64,000 nt of DNA from an uncultured Desulfuromonas sp. GTDB lineage: Bacteria; Desulfobacterota; Desulfuromonadia; Desulfuromonadales; Desulfuromonadaceae. The translations under genes and the position numbers were made by a program. The DNA lies in the NCBI RefSeq assembly GCF_963678835.1, contig NZ_OY787469.1, forward strand, positions 1,240,001 through 1,304,000, written 5' to 3'. The notes beneath the pieces were generated by a model. It was not told the DNA's origin. It did no database searches and was given only the letters and a program-made list of their open reading frames with translations. Position 1 is the stretch's first letter; every line of letters begins with the position of its first letter. Positions 28,224 through 59,421 of this stretch are shown here, in pieces.

Positions 28224-31200
28224 ATGCCGCTAAAACTCTTCAGCCCTAAATCGTTAGTGCCGTGGATTGCTGTGAGCATCCTGCTTGTTGTGGTTTTTTG
28301 CGGCTGTTCCGCAGCACAGACGATTTTTCCTCAGGCACAGCAAGGGCGCTTTGACCTGCGTGGTTGGAGCTTTGGCGACCAAGGGGCGGTTCCTCTCAAT
28401 GGCCAGTGGGCCTTTTATTGGGATCAACTTCTTTCCCCGACTCATTTTAGCCAGAACCAAGCGGAATCTCAGAGCGACTATGTCACTGTGCCGAAGCTGT
28501 GGTCCGGTCACGTGACGCCGGAAGGTCAAACCTTGGATCACTCCGGCATGGCGACCTTGCGCCTGACCGTGCACGTTGATGCCAATCAACCGCTGTTGGC
28601 ATTAAAAATCACCGCTATGACCGCCGCCTACCGCTTATGGCTCAATGATCGTCTGTTGGTCGAGCAGGGTATTGTCGGCACCAGCAGCCAGTCCGAGTGT
28701 CCTGCATTCGGGCGTAAAACCGTCAGCTTTCAGCCTCCGGCTGAGAGGTTTGTCCTGACCTTGCAGCTCTCCAATCACAACCTGATCGGCGGGGTTGTTT
28801 CCCATCCACGGTTGGTGCTGGGCGACGCAGCACAACTTAGTACTGCTGCGGGAGCAGAGCGCCGCCACTCAGCTATTCTGCTGTGCGTGTCTCTATTTAT
28901 GGTGGTGTACCATCTGGCGCTGTTTCTGTTTTATCGCCGCGACCGCTCCACCCTCTATTTCGCGCTGTTCTGTCTGCTGTGGCTGATCAACGGCACGATC
29001 ACCTACGTCAGTTCCTGGATGCTGTCGTTCACTGAAATTCACAATATGGTGTGGAGCGTCTATCGCTGCGACCTGATCAGCTACTATCTGACGATTCCCC
29101 TGATGGTGCTGTTTTTTCGCTCCATGTTCCGCGATGAAATGCCTGCGCTCATGCCGAAGCTGGCGCTGCTTCCGGCCCTTGGTTTCAGCGGCTATGTGCT
29201 GCTGCCCGAATTTGTCGGACTGCATCCGTTGCAGGGCAGTGGCCCGCAACTCTACCATCTGTTCTCCATCCTGTTTATCCTCTGGTCTGCCTATGGACTG
29301 ATCAAGGCCTGGCAACACCAACGCAGTGGTGCCGGGCTGATTCTGGCTGGTTTTATTTTGATGACCATGGTGGGCGTCAACGACATGCTGTTCGATATCA
29401 AAGTGGTCAACACCGGTTTTTTTATGCCATTCGGCATGCTGTTGTTCATCGTCTTTCAGGCGCTGGCCCTGGCACAGCGTTTTTCCAATGCGTTTGCCAC
29501 CACTGAGCGGCTGTCCATGGAATTGCAGGAGAAAAATATCGCCCTGTCGCGCATGGATCAACTCAAGGATGAGTTTCTCGCCAACACCTCGCATGAACTG
29601 CGCACGCCGCTGGCCGGGATTATCGGTATTGCCGAATCACTGCTGGCCGGCAGTGGCGGGCAACTTTCCGAACTGGCGCGCCACAACCTGCACATGGTGG
29701 TCACCAGTGGTCGCCGCCTGACCTCGCTCATCAACGACATTCTTGATTTTACCCGGCTGCGCAACCGCGATTTGCCCCTGAACCTCAAAGCCGTCGATGC
29801 CAAAGCCATTGCCGATGTGGTGATCTCCCTGCTCACTCCACTGGCTGAGGCCAAGCAGCTGACTTTGGTGAATCAGATCGATGATACGCTGCCCTGTGTC
29901 CGTGCCGATGAAGATCGCCTCCAGCAGATTTTTTACAACCTGCTCGGCAACGCCATCAAATTTACCGATCAGGGAGAGATTGTCGTTACAGGTCAGCAGG
30001 TCAATGACGGGTTGGAACTCAGCGTGCGCGATCAGGGGATCGGTATCGACGCTGAGGGCCTTAAAACTATCTTCGAACCCTTTGAACAGGTCGATTCCGG
30101 GGCCGAACGCATCAGCCAGGGGGCCGGACTCGGGCTGGCCATCACCCGTAATCTGGTGCAGTTGCACGGCGGCGATCTCGGCGTCGAATCCCAGCTCGGC
30201 CAGGGCAGCACGTTCCACTTTCGCCTGCCAGTGACGGAGTCGTTCACGCAAACCATGGCGGCTGCCGTGGACACGCTTCAATCGTCGCCTGCGCCCATGC
30301 CCGCCAGCGTGCTGTTGCCCGAAAAAACAGCGGAACAAGAATCGCAACAGGCCGGTGAAGGGGAGGATGGTTCTGATTTCAGCATCCTGGTCGTCGATGA
30401 CGAACCGGTCAACCTGCAAGTGCTGGTCAATCAGCTCCACGTTGCCCGCTACCGGGTGCGCATTGCCAACAGCGGTAGGGAGGCCCTCGCTCTGGTCGAC
30501 GAGGAAACCCCGGATCTGATTCTACTCGATATCATGATGCCGCACATGACTGGCTACGAGGTGTGTCAGCGCCTGCGCCGCACCTACAACGCCGCGCAAC
30601 TGCCGGTGATCATGCTCACCGCGCGCAGCCGGGTTTCCGATGTCGTGCAAGGCTTTCAGGCCGGAGCCAACGACTATGTGTCCAAACCGTTTTCCCGCGA
30701 TATCCTGCTGGCGCGGGTGCGCACCCAGCTGCAACTCGGCCGTGCCTATCAGACTCTGGCCGAAAATATGCGCCTGAAAAAAGAGCTGGAACAACGTCAG
30801 CAGACCGAACTCGAACTGCGCCAGACCCAGCGCCGCCTTGCCCAATTGCTCGACAGCGTCGATGACATGGTCATCACCGTCAACGAAAGTCGCGAAATCT
30901 CCTTTTACAACCACAGCGCCGCCCAACTGCTCGGTGTTGATGACGACACCTTGCTCGGCCATGGTCTCGAAGAACTGTTTGATGCCGCCTGGGTTGAGAA
31001 ACTGGAAGCCCTGTCGGTCCGCCAGCAGAAGGGGGAGAACGGCGAGGGCGCGACCTGCTCGCTGGCCGGGCTTGAGGTGACCAAAGCCGATGGCGGGACC
31101 CTACAGGTTGATGTGATTGCCACCCTGCTCATCCTGGAAGATGAAGCGTTGCAGACCCTGATCCTGCGCGTGCCGCAGACCGTTACGCCGTCACCGGCAC

Positions 31201-31688
31201 CCGTGACCGTTAACGTCATTGCCGCCGTGAACCGCCATCAGCAACGCCTGCGCGGTCTGGAAAATGCCCTTAACGGTCTGCTGCCCCGCTTGCAATCCGA
31301 TGCCCCGGAAGTGGTCAACGAGATCCGCACCCTTGATCAGGCCCTGGCCGATGTGGAAAAAAATCTCCACACCAGCGCCGAAAATGAACGCCGCCGCCTG
31401 GCCGTACAGGTGATGCAACTCAGTATCGACTACTGGTACGAAGCCACCGACCTGGGCAAGGTCGATCTGGCGCGTGAATCCGGCATCTGGAAACTCTACA
31501 CCGACCGCAACGGCTACACCCGCGCCCAGACCTTTGACAAATACCTCAGCGAAGAGACCTTCCCCCGTCGCCCGCGCTGGAAATCCATCAGCAACACCGC
31601 CGTCTATGTGCTCGCTGCCTGCACGACGCCTTGCCCTCTGCGTGATCGTCTGGAACGCGCCCTCGCCGCCCTGCGCCTGCAAGAATAG
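28224..31688 (+). CDS. Hybrid sensor histidine kinase with a novel C-terminal domain
   Basis: Domains of the 1154-aa inner-membrane protein in order: export segment (1-30); periplasmic jelly-roll (about 45-200); 7TM-DISM region (215-420); HisKA with phospho-acceptor His457 (ANTSHELRTPLAG); HATPase with N-box LQQIFYNLLGNAIKF, DQGIGI and GAGLGLAI; receiver domain with Asp769 (LILLDIMMPHMTG) and the Lys of YVSKPF; PAS (about 865-990); and a last ~100 residues (VQVMQLSIDYWYEATDLGKV... LSEETFPRRPRW) that I do not know. That domain is also encoded alone at 48058 and 59074, after adhesin genes. The kinase should sense an external signal and pass phosphate to its own REC. It lies 190 bases upstream of the first adhesin, so it is the likely controller of the array. 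Confidence 0.93.
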   Translation: MPLKLFSPKSLVPWIAVSILLVVVFCGCSAAQTIFPQAQQGRFDLRGWSFGDQGAVPLNGQWAFYWDQLLSPTHFSQNQAESQSDYVTVPKLWSGHVTPEGQTLDHSGMATLRLTVHVDANQPLLALKITAMTAAYRLWLNDRLLVEQGIVGTSSQSECPAFGRKTVSFQPPAERFVLTLQLSNHNLIGGVVSHPRLVLGDAAQLSTAAGAERRHSAILLCVSLFMVVYHLALFLFYRRDRSTLYFALFCLLWLINGTITYVSSWMLSFTEIHNMVWSVYRCDLISYYLTIPLMVLFFRSMFRDEMPALMPKLALLPALGFSGYVLLPEFVGLHPLQGSGPQLYHLFSILFILWSAYGLIKAWQHQRSGAGLILAGFILMTMVGVNDMLFDIKVVNTGFFMPFGMLLFIVFQALALAQRFSNAFATTERLSMELQEKNIALSRMDQLKDEFLANTSHELRTPLAGIIGIAESLLAGSGGQLSELARHNLHMVVTSGRRLTSLINDILDFTRLRNRDLPLNLKAVDAKAIADVVISLLTPLAEAKQLTLVNQIDDTLPCVRADEDRLQQIFYNLLGNAIKFTDQGEIVVTGQQVNDGLELSVRDQGIGIDAEGLKTIFEPFEQVDSGAERISQGAGLGLAITRNLVQLHGGDLGVESQLGQGSTFHFRLPVTESFTQTMAAAVDTLQSSPAPMPASVLLPEKTAEQESQQAGEGEDGSDFSILVVDDEPVNLQVLVNQLHVARYRVRIANSGREALALVDEETPDLILLDIMMPHMTGYEVCQRLRRTYNAAQLPVIMLTARSRVSDVVQGFQAGANDYVSKPFSRDILLARVRTQLQLGRAYQTLAENMRLKKELEQRQQTELELRQTQRRLAQLLDSVDDMVITVNESREISFYNHSAAQLLGVDDDTLLGHGLEELFDAAWVEKLEALSVRQQKGENGEGATCSLAGLEVTKADGGTLQVDVIATLLILEDEALQTLILRVPQTVTPSPAPVTVNVIAAVNRHQQRLRGLENALNGLLPRLQSDAPEVVNEIRTLDQALADVEKNLHTSAENERRRLAVQVMQLSIDYWYEATDLGKVDLARESGIWKLYTDRNGYTRAQTFDKYLSEETFPRRPRWKSISNTAVYVLAACTTPCPLRDRLERALAALRLQE

Positions 31689-31790
31689 TCGCTTCTTTCG
31701 GCACTGCTTTACAATGCTTGTCATTTGACGAATTGCCATTCTTTTATTGCTGTAAAATCACGATTTATCAATTAGTTACAGACTATTTTC

Positions 31791-31842
31791 ACAGTTTTTA
31801 ACAGTAGCTTTTTGCCCTTTTTTGCCGCCGCTCTGCTAGCGT
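31791..31842 (+). promoter_or_regulatory. Adhesin-regulon promoter, copy for adhesin 1
   Basis: ACAGT-TTTTA-ACAGT is a direct repeat with 10-base period, as for activators that bind one face of DNA. It is followed by TTTTTGCCC (-35 region) and TGCTAGCGT (extended -10 type, TG-N-TA), 28 bases after the second ACAGT. A GCCGCC...GGCGGC hairpin covers the start region. Confidence 0.7.
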
Positions 31843-31877: not shown

Positions 31878-33863
31878 ATGACGCGTTGTGTGAAGCTGTG
31901 GGGTTGGTTGGTGATGGTGGTTTTGTTGGCGGCGCTGCCGGTACCTCAAGAGGCTTTGGCCCTTATGGTGGGGAGTCACGACGGAACCACGGTTAAGACG
32001 ACGGGTGCTCATGATCATAGCGATGCTAGCAACACCTCCATCGGCAAGGGATCTAATGCCGGCGTTGATCGCACGGGTAATTATTCCGCTACGGCGGTGG
32101 GCTATTACGCCAATGCCCCCGGAGCCCTCAGTACGGCCCTCGGCCGTGAGAGTAACGCCACCGCTGATTCCAGTACGGCCATTGGCACTACTAGTACGGC
32201 CACCGGCTTTGGCAGTACGGCACTCGGCCGTGACAGTAATGCTAGCGGTGAATACAGTACGGCCACCGGCGCTGGCAGTGATGCCACTGCCTATGGCAGT
32301 ACGGCCTCCGGCGTTTTCAGTGCGGCCACAGGCACCAATAGTACCGCCCTCGGTGCTAATGCGGATGCCACACAACAAGGGAGCACGGCTACCGGCTATA
32401 ATGCCAAAGCGACAGGGCAATACAGCACCGCCATCGGAGCGCAAGCCGCGGCCAGTCAGGAAGGCGCCACGGCCCTGGGTAACGGTTCCACGGCTTCCGC
32501 CACACAGAGTACGGCTTTGGGGAAAGACGCCACAGCCTCGGCGAGCAACTCCGTCGCCCTGGGATATGGCTCTAAGGCCACTGAAGCCAATACCGTTTCC
32601 GTCGGTTCCGAAGGCAACGAACGGCGCATCACCAACGTGGCCGCTGGCGTCAATGACACCGACGCGGTCAACATGAGCCAGCTCAATGCGGTGCAAAGCC
32701 AGGTGACGACCAACGCTACCAGCATCAGCACCAATGCCGATAATATCAGCCAGAACACCAGCGACATTGCCCAGAACAGCGCCGATATTGCGACCAACGC
32801 CAGCGGCATTGCCCAGAACAGCAACGATATTGCTGACAACGCCAGTGCCATCAGTAACAACAGTGCCGCGATTGCTGTGAATACCGAGAGCATTTCGGCC
32901 AACACCACCAGTATTAGCCAGAACAGCAGCGCCATAGCGACGAACACGAGCGATATCGCCAGTAACAGCAGCGCCATTTCTGATAATACGACCGCCATTG
33001 CTTCGCTGAATACCACCATGTCGAGTCTGTCATCCACGGGCAGTGACAGCGCCAGCGCCAGCGGCGCCGACAGCCTGGCGTTGGGTTCCGGGGCTACAGC
33101 CTATGACTACGACACCGCCATCGGTGCCAATGCCACAGTCACCGCCGACAGCTCCACCGCCGTCGGGTCCAACACCCTGATCGCATCGGAACAGGCCGTG
33201 GCCGTGGGTGCCGATGCAATGGTGAGCAGTGAGGCCACCGGTGGGGTGGCCATTGGTCAGAATGCGGTCGTGGAACAAGGCGCAAGCAACGCCGTTGCCC
33301 TGGGCACAGACTCAGTGGCCGATGAAGCCAATACCGTGTCCGTCGGCAGCAGCGTCAACCAGCGGCGCGTTACCAACGTGGCCGACGGCGAAAACAACGG
33401 CGATGCGGTCAATGTCGGTCAGCTCAATACGGTGAAAAGCGATGTGAGCAGCAACAGCGCGGCGATTGCCGACAACACGACAACGATAACCCGCAACAGT
33501 AGTGATATTGCCGCCAACACACAGAGCATTGCCCAAAACAGCAGCTCAATCACGCAAAATGTCAGTGACATTTCTGAAAATCGCAGCGCCATCGCTGAGA
33601 ATAGTCACGATATTCATCGCTTAAGCAAAGATGTCGATATTAACCGCGCCGGTATTGCGGCGGTGGCGGCCATGGCTGCCATCCCCGGTCCGGTGCCGGG
33701 CAAGCGCAATTCCTTCGGCATCGGTTACGGCACCTTTAAAGGGGAAGATGCCCTGGCTCTGGGGTTTAAAGCGGATTTGACGCAAAACCTGAGAATGACC
33801 ACGGCAGTGTCCCACTCACGTCATGATATGGCTGCCAATGTCGGTCTTGGCTGGAGCTGGTAG
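31878..33863 (+). CDS. Trimeric autotransporter adhesin 1 (YadA type, anchor A)
   Basis: The 661-aa surface protein has a signal peptide (MTRCVKLWGWLVMVVLLAAL, cut near QEALA), then a head of about 14-residue YadA beta-roll repeats (AIGxxSxATG), a neck with RRITNVAAGVNDTDAVNMSQL, a long coiled-coil stalk (repeats of the form N-x-x-x-I-x-x-N: SDIAQNSADIATNASGI), a second head, a second neck (QRRVTNVADGENNGDAVNV), another stalk and a C-terminal anchor (GIGYGTFKGEDALALGFKAD ... NVGLGWSW). The trimer anchor forms an outer-membrane beta-barrel and the rest sticks out for adhesion. GGAG precedes ATG 31878. The stalk with ~15 heptad-like units is unique in this array. Anchor A is shared with adhesin 5. 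Confidence 0.9.
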   Translation: MTRCVKLWGWLVMVVLLAALPVPQEALALMVGSHDGTTVKTTGAHDHSDASNTSIGKGSNAGVDRTGNYSATAVGYYANAPGALSTALGRESNATADSSTAIGTTSTATGFGSTALGRDSNASGEYSTATGAGSDATAYGSTASGVFSAATGTNSTALGANADATQQGSTATGYNAKATGQYSTAIGAQAAASQEGATALGNGSTASATQSTALGKDATASASNSVALGYGSKATEANTVSVGSEGNERRITNVAAGVNDTDAVNMSQLNAVQSQVTTNATSISTNADNISQNTSDIAQNSADIATNASGIAQNSNDIADNASAISNNSAAIAVNTESISANTTSISQNSSAIATNTSDIASNSSAISDNTTAIASLNTTMSSLSSTGSDSASASGADSLALGSGATAYDYDTAIGANATVTADSSTAVGSNTLIASEQAVAVGADAMVSSEATGGVAIGQNAVVEQGASNAVALGTDSVADEANTVSVGSSVNQRRVTNVADGENNGDAVNVGQLNTVKSDVSSNSAAIADNTTTITRNSSDIAANTQSIAQNSSSITQNVSDISENRSAIAENSHDIHRLSKDVDINRAGIAAVAAMAAIPGPVPGKRNSFGIGYGTFKGEDALALGFKADLTQNLRMTTAVSHSRHDMAANVGLGWSW

Positions 33864-34015: not shown

Positions 34016-34209
34016 GCGGTTTTTCTGTCTCTTCCCTCTTAGACGTGCGCCATACGAAGACGTCTCTTGATTCTCGCAGTCGTTTTTTCTCCCGCCGCAC
34101 GGTGAACATGCATTTATATCGTGTCAGCAGGCGGTTTTGATCCTGAAAATCCTGCTTTCTTCCTTTCTTCCTGAAGTGTCATTTTATCAATAGGTTACAA
34201 ACTTTTTTA

Positions 34210-34261
34210 CCAGTTTTTAACAGTAGTATTTCGCCACTTGTCCAGTCATGACTGCTAGCGT
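34210..34261 (+). promoter_or_regulatory. Adhesin-regulon promoter, copy for the MACPF-like gene
   Basis: CCAGTTTTTAACAGT followed after 28 bases by TGCTAGCGT, the same layout and spacing as for the adhesins although the sequence between differs. It is 280 bases from the MACPF-like start, so a long leader or an extra promoter is possible. Confidence 0.6.
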
Positions 34262-34355: not shown

Positions 34356-34490
34356 CGCCTTGACAGGCTGATGAAAAACGGTCTGGCAGCCCAAGAACGG
34401 GCGGCCCCAATTAAAAACTGATCCTCAACGGCTTGATTTTGTAAGCAAGACGGAAACACTGTTTTCGGCTTGCGTCGTTGAGATGCCCTA
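34356..34490. repeat. Inverted copy of the 27.4-27.9 kb hairpin repeat
   Basis: GCAAGACGGAAACACTGTTT and TTCGGCTTGCGTCGTTGAGA are the reverse complement of 27758-27800. The gap 33864-34540 holds the palindrome, the promoter and this repeat. Confidence 0.6.
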
Positions 34491-34540
34491 AGATAGGATG
34501 TCTTCGACATCTTGCCAACTTTTGCCGCGTAGGAGGCGCT

Positions 34541-37396
34541 ATGAACAGACCTTTTAAAACCGGACCCGAGAGTCATGACAGCACTGCCGAGATCGATGTC
34601 TATCCGACCTTAAGCGGAAAATTAGGTTTTGATCAGCGCGATGTCGACCGTTTGACGGCGGCAAGCAATCACCATCAGGTGACCGTTGATACCATCCCGA
34701 CCTTTGTTTTGGGGACTGTCATCAACATGATTGATTCGACGTACAACAATACACCGATTTTCAATCTTGGTAATCTGGATAAAGACGGGTTGCTCGATCT
34801 TAATCCACAGAGCGCCAGCCAGGATGATATCAGCATTAAAATGGTTAGCAACAAGGCGGCCTATACCTTTTCGTACAAGGCTGCGGCCAAGTCAGAAACG
34901 TCAGCCAATCTTTTAGGTTTTGTCGGTGCGGGGTTGGCGGCGCAATTCGACCAGTCGCTCTCTCGGGCCAATTCGGACGGCAACGTCTATGTCTCCATGT
35001 CACGGGGAAAGCACGATTCCTATTTTGAAATTAATGCGGCTGATTTGGCCTCGGGGTATGATTTTACGCCCTACCTGATCGGAACAGAACTCAGTGACGA
35101 CGAGGTCGCGGCCTATGTCGACTATAGCGAAGTGAATGTCGAAGAAGGCAAAGGCACGTATATCGACACGCTGATTTTTAACGGTAACCAGGGCAAAGGG
35201 CAGATCGATTGGGCAGTGCGTAATGTGTATGGCAATGTCCAGCTGTTGACGCGGATGGAAGCGATCTTCGGCATGATGAGAGCACAATATGATGCCTTTG
35301 TCGGCGATGAAGCGGTTCAGAATATTCTTTACAGCAACATGTTGACGATGAAAAAGAGGATCGGCGATGCCATTCAGGATTTTTATACCCATGTCGGCAC
35401 CCATTTTGTCAGCAAACTGGAGTTTGCCAATTATGCCTATGGGTATGGCACGCTTGATTTTAGTGATGCCGCCACAAATCAGGAAGCCAGGTTCGGTGCC
35501 GCTGTTTCACTGAGCGGAGGGGTACCGGCAAAATTTTCTGCTGCCAGTGAGTCCTCGGTCTCTTTCGCCCAGGCGAACGGCTGGGCCGAGGCCATGAAAA
35601 ATCTCACAATCGAAGCGTCTTCACGCCCCTCGGGGATGGATCTTGGCAGCTTTGCGTCTGAGATTAAAGCCATGCTCAACGATGAAGGGACGGCATTATC
35701 CGTGCCGAGTTTATATTTACCAACCTCGCCGACCGTGACCGTAAAAGCCGTTCCCGACCTCAAAAAAAAGAAGAGCAGTGCCCCTCCGGACTGTGTCTTT
35801 GCCAACTATGGTGAATGGCAGGCCTACCAGAAGGCCCTGAAAGACAAGAAGAATCTCGATGCAACGGTCAAGCGGTGCAAAAAAAAGGTTGACGAAAAAG
35901 GGACGGACTCACTGGAGGTTGAGACCGGTGATGAGAACGGGAATGCCATTGAGGCGCCGAGCAATTTGTATGAAGCCTATGCCGAAGAGATGGCGCTGTT
36001 AAAGAGCCGCGCCGAATCTCCTGTCGAGGATGGTGCCGCCAACGACTCTACGGGATTAAGAATCGAGGATATGTTTGTCAGCGGTTTTAAAACCACCTCG
36101 TACGACACGGTGATTCCCGCGTTACGCACCAGCAAGATTGTGCTGCCGGATACCGGAGATGAGGTCTGCATCTACCCTAACGCCACCTTGTTGCTCATGG
36201 TGATGGATTCGTTCCGTCAAGTCGCCGATTATACAAATTTTATCAGTAAATTCACCGTCAGTAATGTTTCAGCCGCGTTCAACGACCAGATCCATGACTT
36301 TTATGACCAGTTCTCCGCGAAAGGCTATGCCATGGTCACGGATCACATCGCCCAGGGAACAGATATCGACCCTCAACTGCTGAACGATTTTGCTGTGGCC
36401 ATGTATGGTCATAGCGACGGCTCAAAACTGATGGAGAGCCTGCTGTATCAAACCTTTGGATCGAACATCGATAAAGCCTCCTATGTCAAATATCTGCTGC
36501 AGCCCGAGGTCAAGCCGCTGTGGGCCGATGCTCCGGGCGGCTATGCTCCTTTTCTGTTTGATGACAGCGAAAATCTCTGCTTTGCGAAACTGGACCACCT
36601 GAAGACCGTCGATATCATTGATGCCAAAACCGGCATGCCGGGTTCTGATTTTAAAACGCAACTGCACTTCGACACCGGCACCAAGGTGACAAAGCTCCCC
36701 GAGGACCTTTCGCTTCTGTATCAAGGCCGCACCGAGACGCCGTTGTTTCCGATTTTTCGCTATGAACAAAAGAATAATCCCAGGTTTTTGTTTTTACAGA
36801 CCTCGGGCAATTTTCAACTCATTTACGGCCAAAACGGTTTGATCCATCCGTTCAGAATTCCGCGTACGCGAACCACGGATCGTACCCTGGACCTTGCGAC
36901 CGGCACACTTGCCGCGGATGCACTCAACATTACGGAAAAGCTTATAAAGCCACTGATTGATGAGATAGAAGGTTTTGATCTTGAAAAGGATCTCAATACA
37001 CGTTACGCCCTCTATTTTCCGGATACGACCCAGACCGAAGAACTTCGCAAAAACTACCGTGTTCTACACATTGCACTGCCTAATAAACCTCAACCTGAAA
37101 AAAAAGTTGTGGTTTCACCGGACCCTCGTGCCTATGCCGCCTATGTCTTTATGGACTCCTGGAGCGCGTTAAACGGTCATCTGATCGACGATGGTGTCGG
37201 CGGCTACCTGGTCACGGTTAAAGGTGGCAGACAAAAACGGGTCAACGGTGGCCTTCATGTGCTGTTGCCGATTGATTATTCCAAAATCACCGGCGACTAC
37301 GGCTCTTTGTTGTTGGGTAATTCCTACGGTCAGACCATCGATTACATCAACAGCCCGACCTATGATGCCGGGGTGATTACATCCATGCATCGCTAA
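34541..37396 (+). CDS. MACPF-like (membrane attack/perforin fold) protein
   Basis: The 951-aa protein has no signal peptide. About residues 265-305 it has QDFYTHVGTHFVSKLEFANY and AYGYGTLDF, which resembles the MACPF signature (x-Y/F-G-T-H-F/Y then a G-rich strand). Upstream a region with helical segments (YTFSYKAAAKSETSANLLGF) could be a transmembrane hairpin cluster. Later parts, including a Lys-rich linker (KKKKSSAPPDCVFANYGEWQAY), are not recognised. MACPF proteins form oligomeric pores in membranes, and some bacterial ones have other roles. AGGAGG precedes ATG 34541. It carries the adhesin-type promoter 280 bases upstream and sits between adhesins 1 and 2, so it is probably deployed together with them. 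Confidence 0.55.
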   Translation: MNRPFKTGPESHDSTAEIDVYPTLSGKLGFDQRDVDRLTAASNHHQVTVDTIPTFVLGTVINMIDSTYNNTPIFNLGNLDKDGLLDLNPQSASQDDISIKMVSNKAAYTFSYKAAAKSETSANLLGFVGAGLAAQFDQSLSRANSDGNVYVSMSRGKHDSYFEINAADLASGYDFTPYLIGTELSDDEVAAYVDYSEVNVEEGKGTYIDTLIFNGNQGKGQIDWAVRNVYGNVQLLTRMEAIFGMMRAQYDAFVGDEAVQNILYSNMLTMKKRIGDAIQDFYTHVGTHFVSKLEFANYAYGYGTLDFSDAATNQEARFGAAVSLSGGVPAKFSAASESSVSFAQANGWAEAMKNLTIEASSRPSGMDLGSFASEIKAMLNDEGTALSVPSLYLPTSPTVTVKAVPDLKKKKSSAPPDCVFANYGEWQAYQKALKDKKNLDATVKRCKKKVDEKGTDSLEVETGDENGNAIEAPSNLYEAYAEEMALLKSRAESPVEDGAANDSTGLRIEDMFVSGFKTTSYDTVIPALRTSKIVLPDTGDEVCIYPNATLLLMVMDSFRQVADYTNFISKFTVSNVSAAFNDQIHDFYDQFSAKGYAMVTDHIAQGTDIDPQLLNDFAVAMYGHSDGSKLMESLLYQTFGSNIDKASYVKYLLQPEVKPLWADAPGGYAPFLFDDSENLCFAKLDHLKTVDIIDAKTGMPGSDFKTQLHFDTGTKVTKLPEDLSLLYQGRTETPLFPIFRYEQKNNPRFLFLQTSGNFQLIYGQNGLIHPFRIPRTRTTDRTLDLATGTLAADALNITEKLIKPLIDEIEGFDLEKDLNTRYALYFPDTTQTEELRKNYRVLHIALPNKPQPEKKVVVSPDPRAYAAYVFMDSWSALNGHLIDDGVGGYLVTVKGGRQKRVNGGLHVLLPIDYSKITGDYGSLLLGNSYGQTIDYINSPTYDAGVITSMHR

Positions 37397-37948: not shown

Positions 37949-38049
37949 TCGCTTCTTTCGGCATTGCTTTACAATGCTTTTCATTTGAGGTTTGCCATTC
38001 TTTCATTGCTGTAAAGTCACGATTTATCAATTAGTTACAAACTAGTTTC

Positions 38050-38101
38050 ACAGTTTTTAACAGTAGCTTTTTGCCCTTTTTTGCCGCCGCTCTGCTAGCG
38101 T
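38050..38101 (+). promoter_or_regulatory. Adhesin-regulon promoter, copy for adhesin 2
   Basis: ACAGTTTTTAACAGT, TTTTTGCCC and TGCTAGCGT at the same spacing as for adhesin 1; the block 37990-38137 is almost identical to 31740-31878. Confidence 0.75.
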
Positions 38102-49303: not shown

Positions 49304-52021
49304 ATGACGCGTTGTGTGAAGCTGTGGAGTTGGTTGGTGATGGTGGTTTTATTGGCGGCGCTGCCGGTACCTCAAGAGGCTTTGGCCGTTATGGTGGGGA
49401 GTCGCGACGGAACCACGGTTAAGACGACGGGTGCTCATGATCATAGCGATACCACCAACACCTCCATCGGCAAGGCATCTGATGCCGGCGTTGGTGGTGA
49501 GAGTGGCATCCTCGCTACGGCGGTGGGCTATGCCGCCAGGGCCACCAACAGCAAGAGTACCGCCATCGGAGCTAATGCTGATGCCACGCGAAAAGGGAGC
49601 ACGGCTACCGGCTATAACGCGGATGCGACAGGGCTATACAGTACCGCCATCGGAGCGCAAGCCGCGGCCAGTCAGGAAGACGCCACGGCCCTAGGTAATG
49701 GTTCCACGGCTTCCGGCTTACAGAGTACGGCTTTGGGGAAAGACGCCATAGCCTCGGAAAAATCCTCTACGGCCCTGGGTCATGGTTCCACGGCTTCCGG
49801 CAAATGGAGTACGGCTTTGGGGCAAACCGCCACAGCCTCGGGAGAATCCTCTACGGCCCTGGGTAAAAGTTCCACGGCTTCCGGCAATTACAGTACGGCC
49901 CTGGGTTCTCGTTCCACGGCTTCCGGCTCTTACAGCACGGCTTTGGGGCGATACGCCACAGCCTCGGCAATCTCCTCTACGGCCCTGGGTTATGGTTCCA
50001 CGGCCAGTCAGGAAGGCGCCACGGCCCTGGGTAGAGATTCCATGGCTTCCGGCTTATCGAGTACGGCTTTGGGGAAAGGCGCCACAGCCTCGGCATACAT
50101 CTCTACGGCCCTGGGTTATGGTTCCACGGCTTCCGGCAAATGGAGCACGGCTTTGGGGGACAGCGCCACAGCCTCGGCAATCTCCTCTACGGCTACAGGG
50201 TTTGAAAGTAACGCCAGAGGCACCAATAGTACCGCCCTCGGCACACAAGCCACGGCCAGTCAGGAAGGCGCCACGGCCCTGGGTAGAAGTTCCATGGCTT
50301 CCGCCACACAGAGTACGGCTTTGGGGAAAGACGCCACAGCCTCGGCGAGCAACTCCGTCGCCCTGGGATATGGCTCTGTCGCCAAAGAGGCAGATACCGT
50401 GTCCGTCGGCACATCCACCAGCCAGCGCCGCATCACCAATGTGGCCACGGCACTCAACGGCACCGACGCCGTTAACCTCGATCAAGTAGAAAGCCTGATC
50501 ACGACCAGCGGTGAAAAGTGGCTCAGCAGCAGCGAAGGCAATGCCGCCACCGTTTCCGGCAGCAATGCCACGGCCATCGGCTCCGGCAGTGCCGCCACCG
50601 CCGACGGTTCCGTGGCCCTTGGCCAGGGCTCCATTGCCGATGAAGCCAATACCGTCTCCCTGGGCAGCGGCAGCATGGCTACGGCCACCAACGCCATCGC
50701 CCTCGGTTTCGGCTCCGTCGCCGATGAAATCAATACCGTGTCCGTCGGCACATCCACCAGTCAGCGCCGCATCACCAACGTCGCCACGGCACTCAACGGC
50801 ACCGACGCCGTCAACCTTGATCAAGTAGAAAGCCTGATCACGACCAGCGGTGAGAAATGGCTCAACAGCACCGAAACCGGCTCGGCCAGCGTTGCCGGCA
50901 GCAATGCCACGGCCATCGGCTCCGGCAGCTTTGCCACCGCCGACGGTTCCGTGGCCCTCGGCCAAGGCTCCATTGCCGATGAAGAAAACACCCTGTCCGT
51001 CGGTTCCGACGGCAGCGAGCGGCGCATCACCAACGTCGCCGCCGGCGTCAACGACACCGACGCGGTGAACATGAGCCAACTCAATGCGGTGCAAAACCAG
51101 GTCAGCACCAACGCCTCAAATATCGCCGCCAATACCTCTAAAATTGCCACCAATAGGGCAAAAATAGCCGCCAACTCGGAAGAGATTGCCGCCATCAAAG
51201 CCCAGTCGGCGATGATTTCCTCCAGCGAAAGCGACAGCGCCAGTAGCAGCGGCAGCAACAGCCTGGCCATCGGCTCCGGTGCCTCCGCCCATGACGACGA
51301 TACCGCCATCGGTGCCAATGCCACAGTCACCGCCGACAGCTCCACCGCCGTCGGGTCCAACACCCTGATCGCATCGGAACAGGCCGTGGCCGTGGGTGCC
51401 GATGCAACCGTAAGCAGTGAGGCCACCGGCGGTGTTGCCCTCGGTCAGAATGCGGTCGTGGAACAAGGCGCAAGCAACGCCGTCGCCCTCGGCCAGGGTT
51501 CCATTGCCGATGAAGCCAATACCGTGTCCGTCGGCAGCAGCGTCAACCAGCGGCGCGTTACCAACGTGGCCGACGGTGAAAACAACGGCGATGCGGTCAA
51601 TGTCGGTCAGCTCAATACCGTGAAAAGCGATGTGAGTAGCAACAGCGCGGCGATTGAGAGTGAAGCCGAGACCCGCGCCGCTTCTGATGAGGCGCAACAG
51701 GCGGATATTGCTTCGAACAGCAGCGCCATTGCCTCGAACAGCAGCGCCATTGCTGAGAATAGTCACGATATACGACGCTTAAGCAAAGATGTCGATATTA
51801 ACCGCGCCGGTATTGCGGCGGTGGCGGCCATGGCTGCCATCCCCGGTCCGGTGCCGGGCAAGCGCAATTCCTTCGGCATCGGTTACGGCACCTTTAAAGG
51901 GGAAGATGCCCTGGCTCTGGGGTTTAAAGCGGATTTGACGCAAAACCTGAGAATGACCACGGCAGTGTCCCACTCACGTCATGATATGGCTGCCAATGTC
52001 GGTCTTGGCTGGAGCTGGTAG
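49304..52021 (+). CDS. Trimeric autotransporter adhesin 5 (YadA type, anchor A)
   Basis: The 905-aa protein has the shared signal peptide, a head of about 25 repeats of the type STALGKSSTASGNYSTALGS, three joints with SQRRITNVATALNGTDAVNL, a special piece NTVSLGSGSMATATNAIALG also found in adhesins 6 and 7, a stalk with QNQVSTNASNIAANTSKIAT, and anchor A (VAAMAAIPGPVPGKRNSFGI). Anchor A and the sequence after the stop (GGTCGGGCATTGAATGACCT) are the same as for adhesin 1, so a recombined block seems to have carried the anchor plus its 3' flank. GGAG precedes ATG 49304. Confidence 0.92.
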   Translation: MTRCVKLWSWLVMVVLLAALPVPQEALAVMVGSRDGTTVKTTGAHDHSDTTNTSIGKASDAGVGGESGILATAVGYAARATNSKSTAIGANADATRKGSTATGYNADATGLYSTAIGAQAAASQEDATALGNGSTASGLQSTALGKDAIASEKSSTALGHGSTASGKWSTALGQTATASGESSTALGKSSTASGNYSTALGSRSTASGSYSTALGRYATASAISSTALGYGSTASQEGATALGRDSMASGLSSTALGKGATASAYISTALGYGSTASGKWSTALGDSATASAISSTATGFESNARGTNSTALGTQATASQEGATALGRSSMASATQSTALGKDATASASNSVALGYGSVAKEADTVSVGTSTSQRRITNVATALNGTDAVNLDQVESLITTSGEKWLSSSEGNAATVSGSNATAIGSGSAATADGSVALGQGSIADEANTVSLGSGSMATATNAIALGFGSVADEINTVSVGTSTSQRRITNVATALNGTDAVNLDQVESLITTSGEKWLNSTETGSASVAGSNATAIGSGSFATADGSVALGQGSIADEENTLSVGSDGSERRITNVAAGVNDTDAVNMSQLNAVQNQVSTNASNIAANTSKIATNRAKIAANSEEIAAIKAQSAMISSSESDSASSSGSNSLAIGSGASAHDDDTAIGANATVTADSSTAVGSNTLIASEQAVAVGADATVSSEATGGVALGQNAVVEQGASNAVALGQGSIADEANTVSVGSSVNQRRVTNVADGENNGDAVNVGQLNTVKSDVSSNSAAIESEAETRAASDEAQQADIASNSSAIASNSSAIAENSHDIRRLSKDVDINRAGIAAVAAMAAIPGPVPGKRNSFGIGYGTFKGEDALALGFKADLTQNLRMTTAVSHSRHDMAANVGLGWSW

Positions 52022-52504: not shown

Positions 52505-52605
52505 TCGCTTCTTTCGGCATTGCTTTACAATGCTTTTCATTTGAGGTTTGCCATTCTTTCATTGCTGTAAAGTCACGATTTATCAATTAGTTACAAACTA
52601 GTTTC

Positions 52606-52657
52606 ACAGTTTTTAACAGTAGCTTTTTGCCCTTTTTTACCGCCGCTCTGCTAGCGT
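52606..52657 (+). promoter_or_regulatory. Adhesin-regulon promoter, copy for adhesin 6
   Basis: ACAGTTTTTAACAGT...TGCTAGCGT at the standard spacing. Confidence 0.75.
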
Positions 52658-52692: not shown

Positions 52693-55668
52693 ATGACGCG
52701 TTGTGTGAAGCTGTGGAGTTGGTTGGTGATGGTGGTTTTATTGGCGGCGCTGCCGGTACCTCAAGAGGCTTTGGCCGTTATGGTGGGGAGTCGCACCGGA
52801 ACCACGGTTGTGACGACGGGTGCTGATGATCATGACGATGCCACCAACACCTCCATCGGCAAGGAATCTGGTGCCGGCGTTTTTGGCGGTGAGAGTAACA
52901 TGTACGCTACGGCGGTGGGCTATGACGCCAACGCCAGCGGAACCAAGAGTACAGCCACTGGCGGCAACAGCGATGCGAGGGGAGACTATGCCACGGCCAA
53001 TGGTTACAATAGCAACGCCACCGGCTTCAATAGTACCGCCATCGGAGCTAATGCGAATGCCACATGGGATTCGTGGAGTGCGACGGCGGTCGGCTATGGA
53101 ACCACCGCCACCGGATCCGCGAGTACAGCCACTGGCGCTGGCAGTTATGCGACGGCAAACCATGCCACGGCCACCGGCGCTTTTAGTGGAGCCAATGGCG
53201 GGTATAGTACGGCCAATGGTTACGAAAGCAAGGCCAGCGGAACCAAGAGTACAGCCACTGGCACCATCAGCAATGCGACGGCAGACTATGCCACGGCCAA
53301 TGGTTACAATGCCAAGGCCACCGGCGTATCCAGCACGGCGGTCGGCGCGCAGTCCGTAGCCAGTCAAGAATCAGCCACGGCCCTGGGTCATGGTTCCACG
53401 GCTTCCGGCTCTTACAGCACGGCGGTCGGCGCGCAGTCCGTAGCCAGTCAAGAATCAGCCACGGCCCTGGGTCATGGTTCCACGGCTTCCGGCAAAAGGA
53501 GCACGGCTTTGGGGAAAAACGCCAAAGCCTCGGCGTACTCCTCTACGGCCCTGGGTCATGGTTCCACGGCTTCCGGCTCTTACAGCACGGCTTTGGGGCA
53601 AAACGCCAAAGCCTCGGCGGGCTCTACGGCCCTGGGTCATGGTTCCACGGCTTCCGGCTTTTCCAGCACGGCTTTGGGGAAAGACGCCAAAGCCTCGGCA
53701 TTAGCCTCTATGGCCCTGGGTTATCGTTCCACGGCTTCCGGCTCTTACAGCACGGCTTTGGGGGACAGCGCCACAGCCTCGGCATACTACTCTACGGCCC
53801 TGGGTTATAGTACCACGGCTTCCGGCTCTTACAGCACGGCTTTGGGGCAACGCGCCACAGCCTCGGCGAGCAACTCCGTCGCCCTGGGATATCACTCTGC
53901 CGCCGATGAAGCCAATACCGTCTCCCTGGGCAGCGGCAGCATGGCTACGGCCACCAACGCCATCGCCCTCGGTTTCGGCTCCGTCGCCGATGAAATCAAT
54001 ACCGTGTCCGTCGGCACTTCCACCAGCCAGCGCCGCATCACCAACGTCGCCACGGCACTTAACGGCACCGACGCCGTTAACCTCGATCAAGTAGAAAGCC
54101 TGATCTCGACCAGCGGTGAAAAGTGGCTCAGCAGCAGCGAAGGCAATGCCGCCACCGTTTCCGGCAGCAATGCCACCGCCATCGGCTCCGGCAGTGCCGC
54201 CACTGCCGACGGTTCCGTGGCCCTTGGCCAGGGCTCCATTGCCGATGAAGAAAATACCGTCTCCCTGGGCAGCGGCAGCATGGCTACGGCCACCAACGCC
54301 ATCGCCCTCGGTTTCGGCTCCGTCGCCGATGAAATCAATACCGTGTCCGTCGGCAGCAAATACAGTCAGCGCCGCATCACCAATGTCGCCACCGCCGTCA
54401 ACGGCACCGATGCCGTCAACCTCGATCAAGTAGAAAGCCTGATCGTTACCGGCGGAGAGCAGTGGCTCAACAGCACCGAAACCGGCTCGGCCAGCGTTGC
54501 CGGCAGCAATGCCACGGCCATCGGCTCCGGCAGCTTTGCCACCGCCGACGGTTCCGTGGCCCTCGGCCAAGGCTCCATTGCCGATGAAGAAAATACCCTG
54601 TCCGTCGGTTCCGACGGCAGCGAGCGGCGCATCACCAACGTCGCCGACGGCGTCAATGACACCGATGCCGTCAACATGAGCCAACTCAATGCGGTGCAAA
54701 ACCAGGTCAGTGACAACGCCTCAAACATCGCCGCCAATACCAGCGCCATTAACCGCAACGCCTCCAAGATCGCCACCCATACAACCAAAATTGCCACCAA
54801 CAGCGCCGACATCGCTATCATTAAAGCCCAGTCCGCCATCCTCTCCTCCAGCGAAAGCGACAGCGCCAGTAGCAGCGGCAGCAACAGCCTGGCCCTCGGC
54901 TCCGGTGCCTCCGCCCATGACGACGATACCGCCATCGGCACCAATGCCACAGTCACCGCCGACAGCTCCACCGCCGTCGGGTCCAACACCCTGATCGAAT
55001 CGGAACAGGCCGTGGCCGTGGGTGCCGACGCCACGGTGAGCAGTGAGGCCACCGGTGGGGTGGCCATTGGTCAGAATGCGGTCGTGGAACAAGGCGCAAG
55101 CAACGCCGTTGCCCTGGGCACAGACTCAGTGGCCGATGAAGCCAATACCGTGTCCGTCGGCAGCAGCGTCAACCAGCGGCGCGTTACCAACGTGGCCGAC
55201 GGCGAAAACGACGTCGATGCGGTCAATGTCAGTCAGCTCAATACCGTGAAAAGCGATGTGAGCAGCAACAGCGCGGCGATTGAGAGTGAAGCCGAGACCC
55301 GCGCCGCTTCTGATGAGGCGCAACAAGAGGGGATTTCCGCCAACAGCAGCGCCATCACCGAAGTGCGACAGACTTTAAATGACACACGGGATGCCGTGGC
55401 ACACCTTGACCGGCGCGTTGATCAACTGGAGAACGAAATGGATGAAGTTGCGGCTCTGGCCTCGGCGTTTTCGGCTCTGGTACCCAATGCGCGTAGCGCC
55501 AGCAATACCCAGCTTTCACTGGGGCTGGGCAATTACGGCAACGCCAATGCCGTGGCGCTGGGGGTGTTTCATTATGTCAATGACAACGTGTTGGTGAACG
55601 TCGGGGCTTCCACCGCCTTCGGCAACAGAAAAACCGCCGCCCGTGCCGGGATTACCATTGGGTTTTAA
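52693..55668 (+). CDS. Trimeric autotransporter adhesin 6 (YadA type, anchor C), longest of the array
   Basis: The 991-aa protein has the shared signal peptide, a head with repeats of mixed kinds (TATGAFSGANGGYSTANGYE, STALGHGSTASGSYSTALGQ), two copies of the SLGSGSMATATNAIALGFGS block, three necks (QRRITNVA), a stalk with SDNASNIAANTSAINRNASK and anchor C. The segment AVGAQSVASQESATALGHGS is present twice in direct tandem, a sign of recent internal duplication. GGAG precedes ATG 52693; the codon before it is CA instead of TA. The repeat composition overlaps with adhesin 7 in its second half. Confidence 0.92.
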   Translation: MTRCVKLWSWLVMVVLLAALPVPQEALAVMVGSRTGTTVVTTGADDHDDATNTSIGKESGAGVFGGESNMYATAVGYDANASGTKSTATGGNSDARGDYATANGYNSNATGFNSTAIGANANATWDSWSATAVGYGTTATGSASTATGAGSYATANHATATGAFSGANGGYSTANGYESKASGTKSTATGTISNATADYATANGYNAKATGVSSTAVGAQSVASQESATALGHGSTASGSYSTAVGAQSVASQESATALGHGSTASGKRSTALGKNAKASAYSSTALGHGSTASGSYSTALGQNAKASAGSTALGHGSTASGFSSTALGKDAKASALASMALGYRSTASGSYSTALGDSATASAYYSTALGYSTTASGSYSTALGQRATASASNSVALGYHSAADEANTVSLGSGSMATATNAIALGFGSVADEINTVSVGTSTSQRRITNVATALNGTDAVNLDQVESLISTSGEKWLSSSEGNAATVSGSNATAIGSGSAATADGSVALGQGSIADEENTVSLGSGSMATATNAIALGFGSVADEINTVSVGSKYSQRRITNVATAVNGTDAVNLDQVESLIVTGGEQWLNSTETGSASVAGSNATAIGSGSFATADGSVALGQGSIADEENTLSVGSDGSERRITNVADGVNDTDAVNMSQLNAVQNQVSDNASNIAANTSAINRNASKIATHTTKIATNSADIAIIKAQSAILSSSESDSASSSGSNSLALGSGASAHDDDTAIGTNATVTADSSTAVGSNTLIESEQAVAVGADATVSSEATGGVAIGQNAVVEQGASNAVALGTDSVADEANTVSVGSSVNQRRVTNVADGENDVDAVNVSQLNTVKSDVSSNSAAIESEAETRAASDEAQQEGISANSSAITEVRQTLNDTRDAVAHLDRRVDQLENEMDEVAALASAFSALVPNARSASNTQLSLGLGNYGNANAVALGVFHYVNDNVLVNVGASTAFGNRKTAARAGITIGF

Positions 55669-56175: not shown

Positions 56176-56276
56176 TCGCTTCTTTCGGCATTGCTTTACA
56201 ATGCTTTTCATTTGAGGGTTGCCATTCTTTCATTGCTATAAAGTCACGATTTATCAATTAGTTACAAACTAGTTTC

Positions 56277-56328
56277 ACAGTTTTTAACAGTAGCTTTTTG
56301 CCCTTTTTTACCGCCGCTCTGCTAGCGT
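56277..56328 (+). promoter_or_regulatory. Adhesin-regulon promoter, copy for adhesin 7
   Basis: ACAGTTTTTAACAGT...TGCTAGCGT at the standard spacing, GTCG variant of the hairpin as for adhesin 5. Confidence 0.75.
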
Positions 56329-56363: not shown

Positions 56364-59057
56364 ATGACGCGTTGTGTGAAGCTGTGGGGTTGTTTGGTGA
56401 TGGTGTTTCTGTTGGCGGTGCTGCTCAGCCCGCAAGAGTGTTTCGCCCTGGCTGCCGGGGATAAAGGGACTTTTAATGCCGTTGTAAGCGATGGTGCGGA
56501 TGATCATGGATGGCGCAATAACACGGCCATTGGTTATGGCGCGGATGCGGGGAATGATGCTAGTGATGTCGCACTAAACTCTACAGCCGTGGGCCTCAAG
56601 AGTACGGCCACCGGCGATCGCAGTACGGCCACTGGCGCTATAAGCGATGCGACAGCATATGGTTCGACGGCGAGTGGTTTTGACGCCAACGCCACCGGAA
56701 CCAAGAGTACCGCCACTGGCGGCAACAGCGATGCGACGGCAGACTATGCCACGGCCACCGGCTACAATAGCAATGCCGAAGCCGAGTATGCCACGGCCAA
56801 TGGTTACAATACCAATGCCACCGCCGCTTATAGTACCGCCCTCGGTGCTGAAGCTGATGCCACACAAAAAGGGAGCACGGCTACCGGTTATAATGCCAAA
56901 GCTACAGGGGTATACAGTACCGCCATCGGCACACAATCCACGGCCAGTCAGGACGGCGCCGTTGCCCTGGGTAGAGTTTCCACGGCTTCGGCCACACGGA
57001 GTACGGCGGTCGGCACAAAATCCACGGCCAGTCAGGAAGGCGCCACGGCCCTGGGTAACGCTTCCACGGCTTCCGCCACACAGAGTACGGCCTTGGGGCA
57101 AAACGCCACAGCCACGGCCACCAACTCCGTCGCCCTCGGTGCTGAGGCTGATGCCACGCAACGAGGGAGCACGGCCAGCGGCTATAATGCGGATGCGACA
57201 GGGAAATACAGCACCGCCATCGGAGCGCAAGCCGCGGCCAGTCTAGAATCAGCCACGTCCCTGGGTAACGGTTCCACGGCTTCCGCCACACAGAGTACGG
57301 CTTTGGGGAAAGACGCCACAGCCTCGGCGAGCAACTCCGTCGCCCTGGGATATGGCTCTGTCGCCGATGAGGAAGATACCGTGTCCGTCGGCACCACCAC
57401 CAGTCAGCGGCGCATCACCAACGTCGCCACGGCACTCAACGGCACCGATGCCGTCAACCTCGATCAAGTAGAAAGCCTGATCACGACCAGCGGTGAAAAG
57501 TGGATCAGCAGCAGCGAAGGCAATGCCGCCACCGTTTCCGGCAGCAATGCCACGGCCATCGGCTCCGGCAGTGCCGCCACTGCCGACGGTTCCGTGGCCC
57601 TTGGCCAGGGCTCCATTGCCGATGAAGAAAATACCGTCTCCCTGGGCACCGGCAGCATGGCTACGGCCACCAACGCCATCGCCCTCGGTTTCGGCTCCGT
57701 CGCCGATGAAATCAATACCGTGTCCGTCGGCACATCCACCAGTCAGCGCCGCATCACCAACGTCGCCACCGCCGTCAACGGCACCGATGCCGTCAACCTT
57801 GATCAAGTAGAAAGCCTGATCGTTACCGGCGGAGAGCAGTGGCTCAACAGCACCGAAACCGGCTCGGCCAGCGTTGCCGGCAGCAATGCTACGGCCATCG
57901 GCTCCGGCAGCTTTGCCACCGCCGACGGGTCCGTGGCCCTCGGCCAAGGCTCCATTGCCGATGAAGAAAATACCCTGTCCGTCGGTTCCGACGGCAGCGA
58001 GCGGCGCATCACCAACGTCGCCGACGGCGTCAATGACACCGATTCCGTCAACATGAGCCAACTCAATGCGGTACAAAGCCAGGTCCGTGACAACGCCTCA
58101 AACATCGCCGCCAATACCAGCGCCATTAACCGCAACGCCTCCAAGATCGCCACCCATACAACCAAAATTGCCACCAACAGCGCCGACATCGCTATCATTA
58201 AAGCCCAGTCCGCCATCCTCTCCTCCAGCGAAAGCGACAGCGCCAGTAGCAGCGGCAGCAACAGCCTGGCCCTCGGCTCCGGCGCCTCCGCCCATGACGA
58301 CGATACCGCCATCGGTGCCAATGCCACAGTCACCGCCGACAGCTCCACCGCCGTCGGGTCCAACACCCTGATCGAATCGGAACAAGCCGTGGCCGTGGGT
58401 GCCGATGCAACCGTAAGCAGTGAGGCCACCGGTGGGGTGGCCATTGGTCAGAATGCGGTCGTGGAACAAGGCGCAAGCAACGCCGTTGCCCTGGGCACAG
58501 ACTCAGTGGCCGATGAAGCCAATACCGTGTCCGTCGGCAGCAGCGTCAACCAGCGGCGCGTTACCAACGTGGCCGACGGCGAAAACAACGGCGATGCGGT
58601 CAATGTCAGTCAGCTCAATACGGTGAAAAGCGATGTGAGCAGCAACAGCGCGTCGATTGCCGACAACACGACAACGATAACCCGCAACAGTAGTGATATT
58701 GCCGCCAACACACAGAGCATTGCCCAAAACAGCAGCTCAATCACGCAAAATGTCAGTGACATTTCTGAAAATCGCAGCGCCATCGCCGCAAATCGTCATG
58801 ATATTCATCGATTAAGTAAAGACGTTGAGGATAACCGGGCCGGTATTGCCGCGGCTGCAGCGCTGGTGGAGATTACGCCGTCGGCACCGGGTAAGACGAC
58901 GATTAATCTGGGTTTGGCGTCGTTTAAGGATCAGGTGGCGGTGGGCATGACCAGCATGCATCGCTTTGAACGATTCGATAATGTGATGATCAATGCCGGG
59001 GTTTCCATGGCCAACGATAATGTGCTGGTGCGCGCGGGAGGTAGTTTTGAATTCTAA
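56364..59057 (+). CDS. Trimeric autotransporter adhesin 7 (YadA type, anchor B)
   Basis: The 897-aa protein has a variant signal peptide and start (MTRCVKLWGCLVMVFLLAVL, then SPQECFALAAGDKGTFNAVV) that differs after cleavage from the six others. The head has about 22 repeats, some shared word for word with adhesin 2 (STAVGTKSTASQEGATALGN). Three necks, a stalk with SIADNTTTITRNSSDIAANT as in adhesin 1, then anchor B as in adhesin 4. It is a mosaic of adhesins 1, 2, 4 and 6. GGAG precedes ATG 56364. A small gene for the kinase-tail homologue follows at once. Confidence 0.92.
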   Translation: MTRCVKLWGCLVMVFLLAVLLSPQECFALAAGDKGTFNAVVSDGADDHGWRNNTAIGYGADAGNDASDVALNSTAVGLKSTATGDRSTATGAISDATAYGSTASGFDANATGTKSTATGGNSDATADYATATGYNSNAEAEYATANGYNTNATAAYSTALGAEADATQKGSTATGYNAKATGVYSTAIGTQSTASQDGAVALGRVSTASATRSTAVGTKSTASQEGATALGNASTASATQSTALGQNATATATNSVALGAEADATQRGSTASGYNADATGKYSTAIGAQAAASLESATSLGNGSTASATQSTALGKDATASASNSVALGYGSVADEEDTVSVGTTTSQRRITNVATALNGTDAVNLDQVESLITTSGEKWISSSEGNAATVSGSNATAIGSGSAATADGSVALGQGSIADEENTVSLGTGSMATATNAIALGFGSVADEINTVSVGTSTSQRRITNVATAVNGTDAVNLDQVESLIVTGGEQWLNSTETGSASVAGSNATAIGSGSFATADGSVALGQGSIADEENTLSVGSDGSERRITNVADGVNDTDSVNMSQLNAVQSQVRDNASNIAANTSAINRNASKIATHTTKIATNSADIAIIKAQSAILSSSESDSASSSGSNSLALGSGASAHDDDTAIGANATVTADSSTAVGSNTLIESEQAVAVGADATVSSEATGGVAIGQNAVVEQGASNAVALGTDSVADEANTVSVGSSVNQRRVTNVADGENNGDAVNVSQLNTVKSDVSSNSASIADNTTTITRNSSDIAANTQSIAQNSSSITQNVSDISENRSAIAANRHDIHRLSKDVEDNRAGIAAAAALVEITPSAPGKTTINLGLASFKDQVAVGMTSMHRFERFDNVMINAGVSMANDNVLVRAGGSFEF

Positions 59058-59073
59058 TCGGAGCAGAGCAGAT

Positions 59074-59421
59074 ATGGCAGAGCGGCTTTTTAATCCGGTC
59101 TCTTCTGACCGTTGTCATTTGGGGGTGCAGGTGATGCAACTGAGTTTGGCCTGCTGGCAGGAAGCGACCTGCCGTGATCGCAAGGATCTGGCCCGACAGT
59201 CCGGTTTATGGAACCTTTACACGGATATAAACGGCCATGAGCGGACCCAAACGCTGGATAGATATCTCAGCGAAGAAACGTTTCCGCGCCGCCCACGCTG
59301 GAACCGGATTTATGCCACCGCTCGCTATGTTTTATCCGCCAGTAAGGAGTCGTCTTTGTTGTGTGACCAACTCAAACAGACGCTGGAATCTTTGGATAGG
59401 TTTGATGAAAAATTGTTCTGA
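59074..59421 (+). CDS. Stand-alone homologue of the kinase C-terminal domain (after adhesin 7)
   Basis: The 115-aa protein contains GVQVMQLSLACWQEATCRDR, LARQSGLWNLYTDINGHERT and LSEETFPRRPRWNRIYATAR. LSEETFPRRPRW is identical to the kinase tail, so this copy is closer to the kinase than the one at 48058. GGAG lies 10 bases before ATG 59074, and the adhesin 7 stop is 16 bases upstream, the same spacing as in the other pair. No other domain is seen. Function unknown; role in the kinase/adhesin system inferred from context. Confidence 0.8.
   Translation: MAERLFNPVSSDRCHLGVQVMQLSLACWQEATCRDRKDLARQSGLWNLYTDINGHERTQTLDRYLSEETFPRRPRWNRIYATARYVLSASKESSLLCDQLKQTLESLDRFDEKLF

Follow-up and report, generated by a model that had tools for sequence, protein, structure and literature searches.

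Kinase, small genes, and adhesin array

The window, by which we mean the whole stretch of DNA analyzed, comprised 64,000 nt of an uncultured Desulfuromonas sp. (GCF_963678835.1, contig NZ_OY787469.1, positions 1,240,001-1,304,000, forward strand), whose genome, designated as G000, has 4.525 Mb in 2 contigs. It contained a hybrid histidine kinase gene followed by an array of genes for YadA-type trimeric autotransporter adhesins, among which two small genes encode the C-terminal domain of the kinase alone. All genes and boxes of this locus lie on the plus strand, and coordinates are positions of the whole window unless a contig or locus label is given.

The kinase gene (28224-31688; 1154 aa) encodes, according to Pfam, a 7TMR-DISM domain (residues 217-419), HisKA, HATPase_c, a receiver (721-833), and a PAS domain (871-974), followed by a C-terminal domain (31344-31685). 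A sequence-only reading of this DNA had held that the tail matches no known domain. This was abandoned, since a sequence search matched the kinase tail to the ChiS-family DNA-binding domain in PDB 7kpo_A (E 4.6e-17 over query residues 11-103) and the fold predicted for a stand-alone copy of the domain, the helix-sheet-helix arrangement of the ChiS family, agreed; fold-search rows ranked below 7kpo were left out of use. By Pfam and the tail match, the kinase has the layout of a ChiS-like transmembrane hybrid regulator, with membrane sensor, HisKA, HATPase, receiver, PAS, and DNA-binding tail in a single chain. All proteins previously found with this domain carry it at the C terminus, commonly joined to sensory domains, 7TMR-DISM among them (PMC8092284).

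Small gene 1 (48058-48396; 112 aa) and small gene 2 (59074-59421; 115 aa) each encode a stand-alone ChiS-family domain, identified for both from the open reading frame (ORF), the genome search, and sequence identity, and for the second also from the predicted fold. The 115-aa protein was 52% identical to the kinase tail and 57% identical to the 112-aa protein, and the whole genome held these three copies of the domain, the fourth row of the search having an E of 1.27. Pfam and NCBIfam searches with the small proteins gave no match. The small genes start 16 bases past the adhesin stops at 48041 and 59057 on the same strand, and both of these adhesins end in RAGGSFEF. Thus, the earlier claims that the kinase tail domain is encoded alone at these two positions, 16 bases behind co-directional adhesins sharing one anchor type, held up, as did the statement that the kinase gene adjoins adhesin 1, with 123 bases between the kinase stop and the adhesin 1 ORF. 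The claim that both small genes have their own ribosome sites stood in part: short purine-rich stretches were seen by eye ahead of both ATGs, the second one being weak.

Seven of the eight ORFs scanned between the kinase and selO passed the Pfam cut-offs for YadA head, stalk, and anchor, each with an ATG start: adhesin 1 (31878-33863) and the adhesins at 38137-40923, 41823-44393, 45159-48041 (followed by small gene 1), 49304-52021, 52693-55668, and 56364-59057 (followed by small gene 2). The array continues past 59421 with selO, the gene for the protein adenylyltransferase SelO (59566-61023, ORF from the first start codon; Pfam PF02696, E 2.6e-117), and then with adhesin 8, an ORF from 63586 that runs off the window and passes the stalk and anchor cut-offs, its head scoring 23.2 bits against a cut-off of 25.

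The array contained further pieces. The ORF at 34478-37396 (972 aa), which sits behind a degenerate box, had no YadA match, and nothing was found for it in Pfam, NCBIfam, or PDB sequences. A second copy of selO has left its decayed beginning behind small gene 1 (48418-48480); this piece matches the selO start of the related genome G007 at 34 of 38 bases and has an early stop. Copies of 154 bases, made up of the kinase 3' end and the box, precede four adhesins (37918, 41604, 52474, and 56145) with 93.5%-94.2% identity and appear, by their sequence, to be a trace of array copying. Between the adhesins (33864-56297), long blocks of intergenic sequence recur that contain palindromic stretches of the GGGACTGTCCC type, with related copies at 27288-27374 and 5951-6031; these are perhaps repetitive extragenic palindromic (REP)-like elements of the nearby REP-associated transposases. 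Three similar ORFs of the REP-associated tyrosine-transposase type were seen (61320-62303 and 62282-63262 in the window, and L072:5210-6190), and the one that was scanned carried a Y1 transposase domain and a DnaA C-terminal DNA-binding domain, its NCBIfam score being just under the cut-off. A ninth YadA anchor of G000 lies away from the array on the second contig (C2:233609-233791), where it is part of an open frame of 101 aa.

Candidate promoter box

The adhesins share an upstream box, CACAGTTTTTAACAGT, which consists of two ACAGT steps 10 bases apart and, when compared with itself at that distance, agrees at five of six positions. The window held nine exact copies and one with two mismatches, compared with an expectation of 0.41 when up to three mismatches are allowed, and none of 100 shuffles reached ten. 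The nine exact boxes precede all eight adhesins of the locus and selO. They are located at 31790-31805 (adhesin 1), 38049-38064, 41735-41750, 45071-45086 (the adhesin before small gene 1), 49216-49231, 52605-52620, and 56276-56291 (the adhesin before small gene 2), each in front of the corresponding adhesin in the order given above, as well as at 59458-59473, between small gene 2 and selO, and at 63311-63326, before adhesin 8. A broken-off adhesin-like start was noticed by eye between this last box and the adhesin 8 ORF. The copy with two mismatches (34209-34224) lies about 270 bases upstream of the non-YadA ORF.

In the whole genome, the 15-base core of the box had nine exact copies, all in this locus, and at up to one mismatch 11 of 13 matches were in or just past it. 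The selO box has the core in common with the adhesin boxes, together with 47%-62% of the 45 bases upstream but only 22%-25% of the 60 bases downstream. Downstream of the box and ahead of the start codon, the adhesins have in common an inverted repeat of the GCCGCCG...GGCGGCG type followed by a T-rich stretch (e.g., 38065-38136), and by eye none was seen before selO.

Three extensions of the box were tried and rejected. There was no exact core outside the locus to mark further regulon members, and at up to one mismatch G000 had 2 off-locus matches against 4 for a reversed control pattern. A second, weaker box copy 23 bases upstream was the best offset, yet 1866 of 5000 column permutations reached it. 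For a box upstream of the kinase gene itself, the best match had seven mismatches, which is background, in each of the three genomes checked (G000, G007, and G008). A search of the open-licence PMC literature for ChiS binding sites yielded no site sequence for comparison.

Conservation of the locus within the genus

A sample of 58 related genomes was searched with the 115-aa protein and for the box core. The protein matched in five of them, namely four members of the genus (G000, G001, G007, and G008) and one other member of the order, G057, and the kinase together with a small gene was present in 4 of the 10 genus genomes. Exact cores were found in the same four genus genomes (nine in G000, two in G008, and one each in G001 and G007) and in no others. 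The core was thus present in 4/4 genomes with a small gene and 0/54 of the others (p 2.4e-6 if the genomes were independent), or 4/4 and 0/6 within the genus (p 0.005).

The order of genes in G007 was kinase, adhesin, small gene, and selO, whereas in G001 the kinase and the small gene were on two contigs that both end in adhesin sequence. In G008, only an adhesin remnant of about 20 codons was left between the kinase and the small gene, and no YadA anchor was found in this genome. A piece of a YadA anchor occurred in G006, which has neither the kinase nor the small gene, and the two other YadA anchors of G007 had no core at up to one mismatch nearby. In the G007 adhesin of the locus (L013), the signal-peptide frame was by eye not continuous with the long adhesin frame, the break falling at a run of G, which may reflect phase variation or a sequencing error.

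All four genomes with the kinase and a small gene had selO, as did G002, in which the selO neighbors were kept and the kinase-adhesin-small gene block was missing (by eye). Therefore, selO was dropped as a fixed partner of the block; its position may be due to chance, and the box is its sole link to the system.

The five small genes of the four genomes all have open frames and encode the domain alone, while the kinases carry it at the end of a longer protein. The ratio of nonsynonymous to synonymous substitution rates (dN/dS) was 0.137 between small gene 2 and its G008 counterpart and 0.289 between small gene 1 and that of G007. Across small-gene pairs, a value was obtained for 9 of 10, ranging from 0.099 to 0.298, several of them with a dS above 1. 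By these values, the small genes are under purifying selection. In a tree with a midpoint root only, the five small proteins formed one side of a branch (support 100/98) beside the four kinase tails, to which they were 44%-57% identical, and all nine sequences held together (97/96). Small protein 1 grouped with that of G007 (99/100) and small protein 2 with that of G008 (92/78), so that the window genome holds both types.

The domain outside the genus

A three-row domain model (A1) was run on 277 genomes of the class and 395 genomes of a phylum sample, matching in 10 and 6 of them, respectively, with G000 and G206 in both sets. Five records of a plasmid collection matched (three Rhizobium, one Pararhizobium, and one Aeromonas), as did one locus in a contig collection, which came from a Desulfuromonas metagenome-assembled genome. 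A phage or viral origin was rejected: no relative was present among 26 pattern matches in viral contigs, and phage records gave no match.

In the loci read outside the genus, the domain forms the end of longer proteins, including hybrid kinases, a 7TMR-DISM-PAS protein without a kinase domain (G369), a PAS protein (G528), and receiver proteins (G308 and G479). The reading frame of the G057 protein was split. In G179 (L082:9280-9987), the ORF with the domain spans about 236 aa at most, has no Pfam match and no recognised sensor, and is thus a candidate for a further stand-alone domain; it directly follows an ORF that by eye resembles an ABC-transporter ATPase. No YadA anchor was found at E ≤ 0.001 in any of the 10 domain-bearing genomes outside the genus, of which G236 is 66% complete. 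Consequently, the idea that the domain is always near YadA-type adhesins was given up. The ChiS-family domain, which outside the genus occurs mostly in sensors, is a general output module, an outcome that the sequence-only reading had named among those that would refute it. The proposal of a closed system of sensor, adhesins, and small proteins has support within the genus, where kinase, small gene, and a common promoter box occur together and exact boxes in the G000 genome are restricted to the locus.

Proposed regulation of the adhesin array

In the proposed mechanism, an outside signal would pass through the 7TMR-DISM, kinase, receiver, and PAS parts to the kinase's own C-terminal DNA-binding domain, which is predicted to bind CACAGTTTTTAACAGT before each adhesin and selO and to switch these genes from the membrane, presumably activating them. 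The transcripts of the two RAGGSFEF adhesins would also yield the free DNA-binding domain, if the small genes are co-transcribed with them. Since the small proteins have no membrane part or sensor, they could occupy the boxes but not activate, and adhesin output would be limited. Full-length ChiS binds and activates, whereas its isolated domain binds but fails to activate, which by analogy suggests the same behavior for the small proteins. The sequence-only reading had suggested that they compete for a partner or bind the common promoter; since the shared module is a DNA-binding domain, promoter binding is now the leading idea.

That the free small proteins limit kinase-driven adhesin output by competing for the box, a negative feedback, is the explanation we favor, at a confidence slightly short of even. 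Of its parts, the data establish what the domain is and how it is predicted to fold, that the small genes group together and are under purifying selection, and where the box lies and how restricted it is; binding of the box by the kinase, activation, co-transcription of small gene and adhesin, and competition are predicted. The wider picture, in which a membrane kinase is the transcription factor of a self-limiting adhesin regulon that has free copies of the DNA-binding domain as built-in anti-activators, reaches selO through the box, and in one species persists after the adhesins are gone, is put forward tentatively, as less likely true than not.

Several observations weigh against the competition mechanism. 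Only two of the eight adhesins are followed by a small gene, and by eye the domain in the G001 small gene is not preceded by a clear start codon. The four genomes with the box are close relatives that have the locus by descent, so that the co-occurrence of box and domain is not independent and is weak proof of binding. In G057, the domain occurs without any core at up to one mismatch, and selO of G007 and G001, like that of G002, has no box above background. At up to two mismatches, the core matched 20 times in the genome, compared with 22 for the reversed control. Scanning the coding strand of two box regions revealed no recognisable sigma-70-like promoter, so the kinase may either activate or repress.

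The residues known to be critical in ChiS also count against it. Gln mutants of R1068, R1074, K1078, R1090, and R1092 lost DNA binding, and position 1068 was proposed to serve sequence specificity (PMC8092284). At these positions, all four genus kinases have R, Q, K, R, and K, and all five small proteins have I/A/V, Q, K/R, R, and N. The charge at 1068 and 1092 is thus absent in 5/5 small proteins and kept in 4/4 kinases, and position 1074 is Q in all nine. The small proteins might therefore not bind this box, having drifted to another site or contacting the kinase protein instead, which we regard as unlikely, if the strongest of the alternatives. The helix-3 segment is the better-kept part of the domain, with 13-17 of 20 residues shared between a small protein and its own kinase compared with 46%-51% over the whole domain; R1090 is kept in 5/5, which also have K or R at position 1078. 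Moreover, conservation of the five residues varies across the family, including at 1068 (PMC8092284), and N at 1092 is likewise found in the sensor-borne domain of G369, a membrane protein without a kinase part, so that the small proteins may still bind the box, although equal affinity should not be assumed.

The small proteins could instead help the kinase, binding the box beside its domain or pairing with it to strengthen its hold, which would give a positive feedback and a bistable adhesin switch. The self-repeat of the box at 10 bases offers room for two domains, two membrane regulators cooperate at PtfoR in V. cholerae (PMC11856585), and G008 keeps the small gene and the kinase together after adhesin loss. 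Against this stand the failure of the isolated ChiS domain to activate and the lack of any sign of domain self-pairing here, and we judge such help to be rather improbable. We give very little credence to the small genes being functionless duplicated kinase tails that came along as the array was copied, attached to the 3' end of a single adhesin type: the array is full of copied pieces, including the kinase 3'-end copies and the decayed selO start, and the G001 copy lacks a clear start codon, but the two dN/dS values, the five open frames, the retention in G008, and a distance from the kinase tails unlike that of fresh copies speak otherwise.

Relation to known systems and meaning

The locus is real and its domain was already known; what is new is the layout with stand-alone copies of the domain. 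Compared with ChiS, the neighbors here are YadA adhesins and selO rather than chitin genes, and stand-alone copies are present, for which a word search of the main text of PMC8092284 gave no mention. Searches of the open-licence PMC literature likewise brought up no title or abstract that deals with stand-alone ChiS-family domains or ties the family to adhesins. The transmembrane transcription regulators (PMC10269533, PMC11856585) resemble the kinase in joining a membrane sensor and a DNA-binding output in one protein, but soluble copies of the output domain occur here, and DNA binding is here predicted from sequence.

Two systems appear closest in logic. The ANR proteins, among them Aar, negatively regulate AraC-type activators of fimbriae and are small as well; as in the present locus, a small protein belongs to an adhesin regulon whose activator it is expected to dampen (PMC4038620). 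However, Pfam finds no AraC domain in the kinase described here, and the small proteins repeat the DNA-binding domain of the regulator itself; ANR proteins are set apart on regulator type, not on a sequence comparison of the small proteins. At badA of Bartonella, the Brt RNA/Trp system similarly links a trimeric autotransporter adhesin to small DNA-binding proteins present in several copies, but there a helix-turn-helix family lies behind small RNAs, while here ChiS-family domains lie behind adhesins (PMC5387305).

To turn to the family as a whole, we know of no earlier use of stand-alone ChiS-family domains, nor of a link of the family to adhesion, and if the proposal is true, it would be the first of both known. 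ChiS set the precedent of a histidine kinase as its own membrane-bound transcription factor. The present locus pairs such a kinase with soluble copies of its DNA-binding domain; together with a clear candidate box and the adhesin loss that occurred naturally in G008, this makes target choice and feedback in this class of regulators directly testable, and it gives the ChiS-family domain a second setting after its use in chitin regulation.

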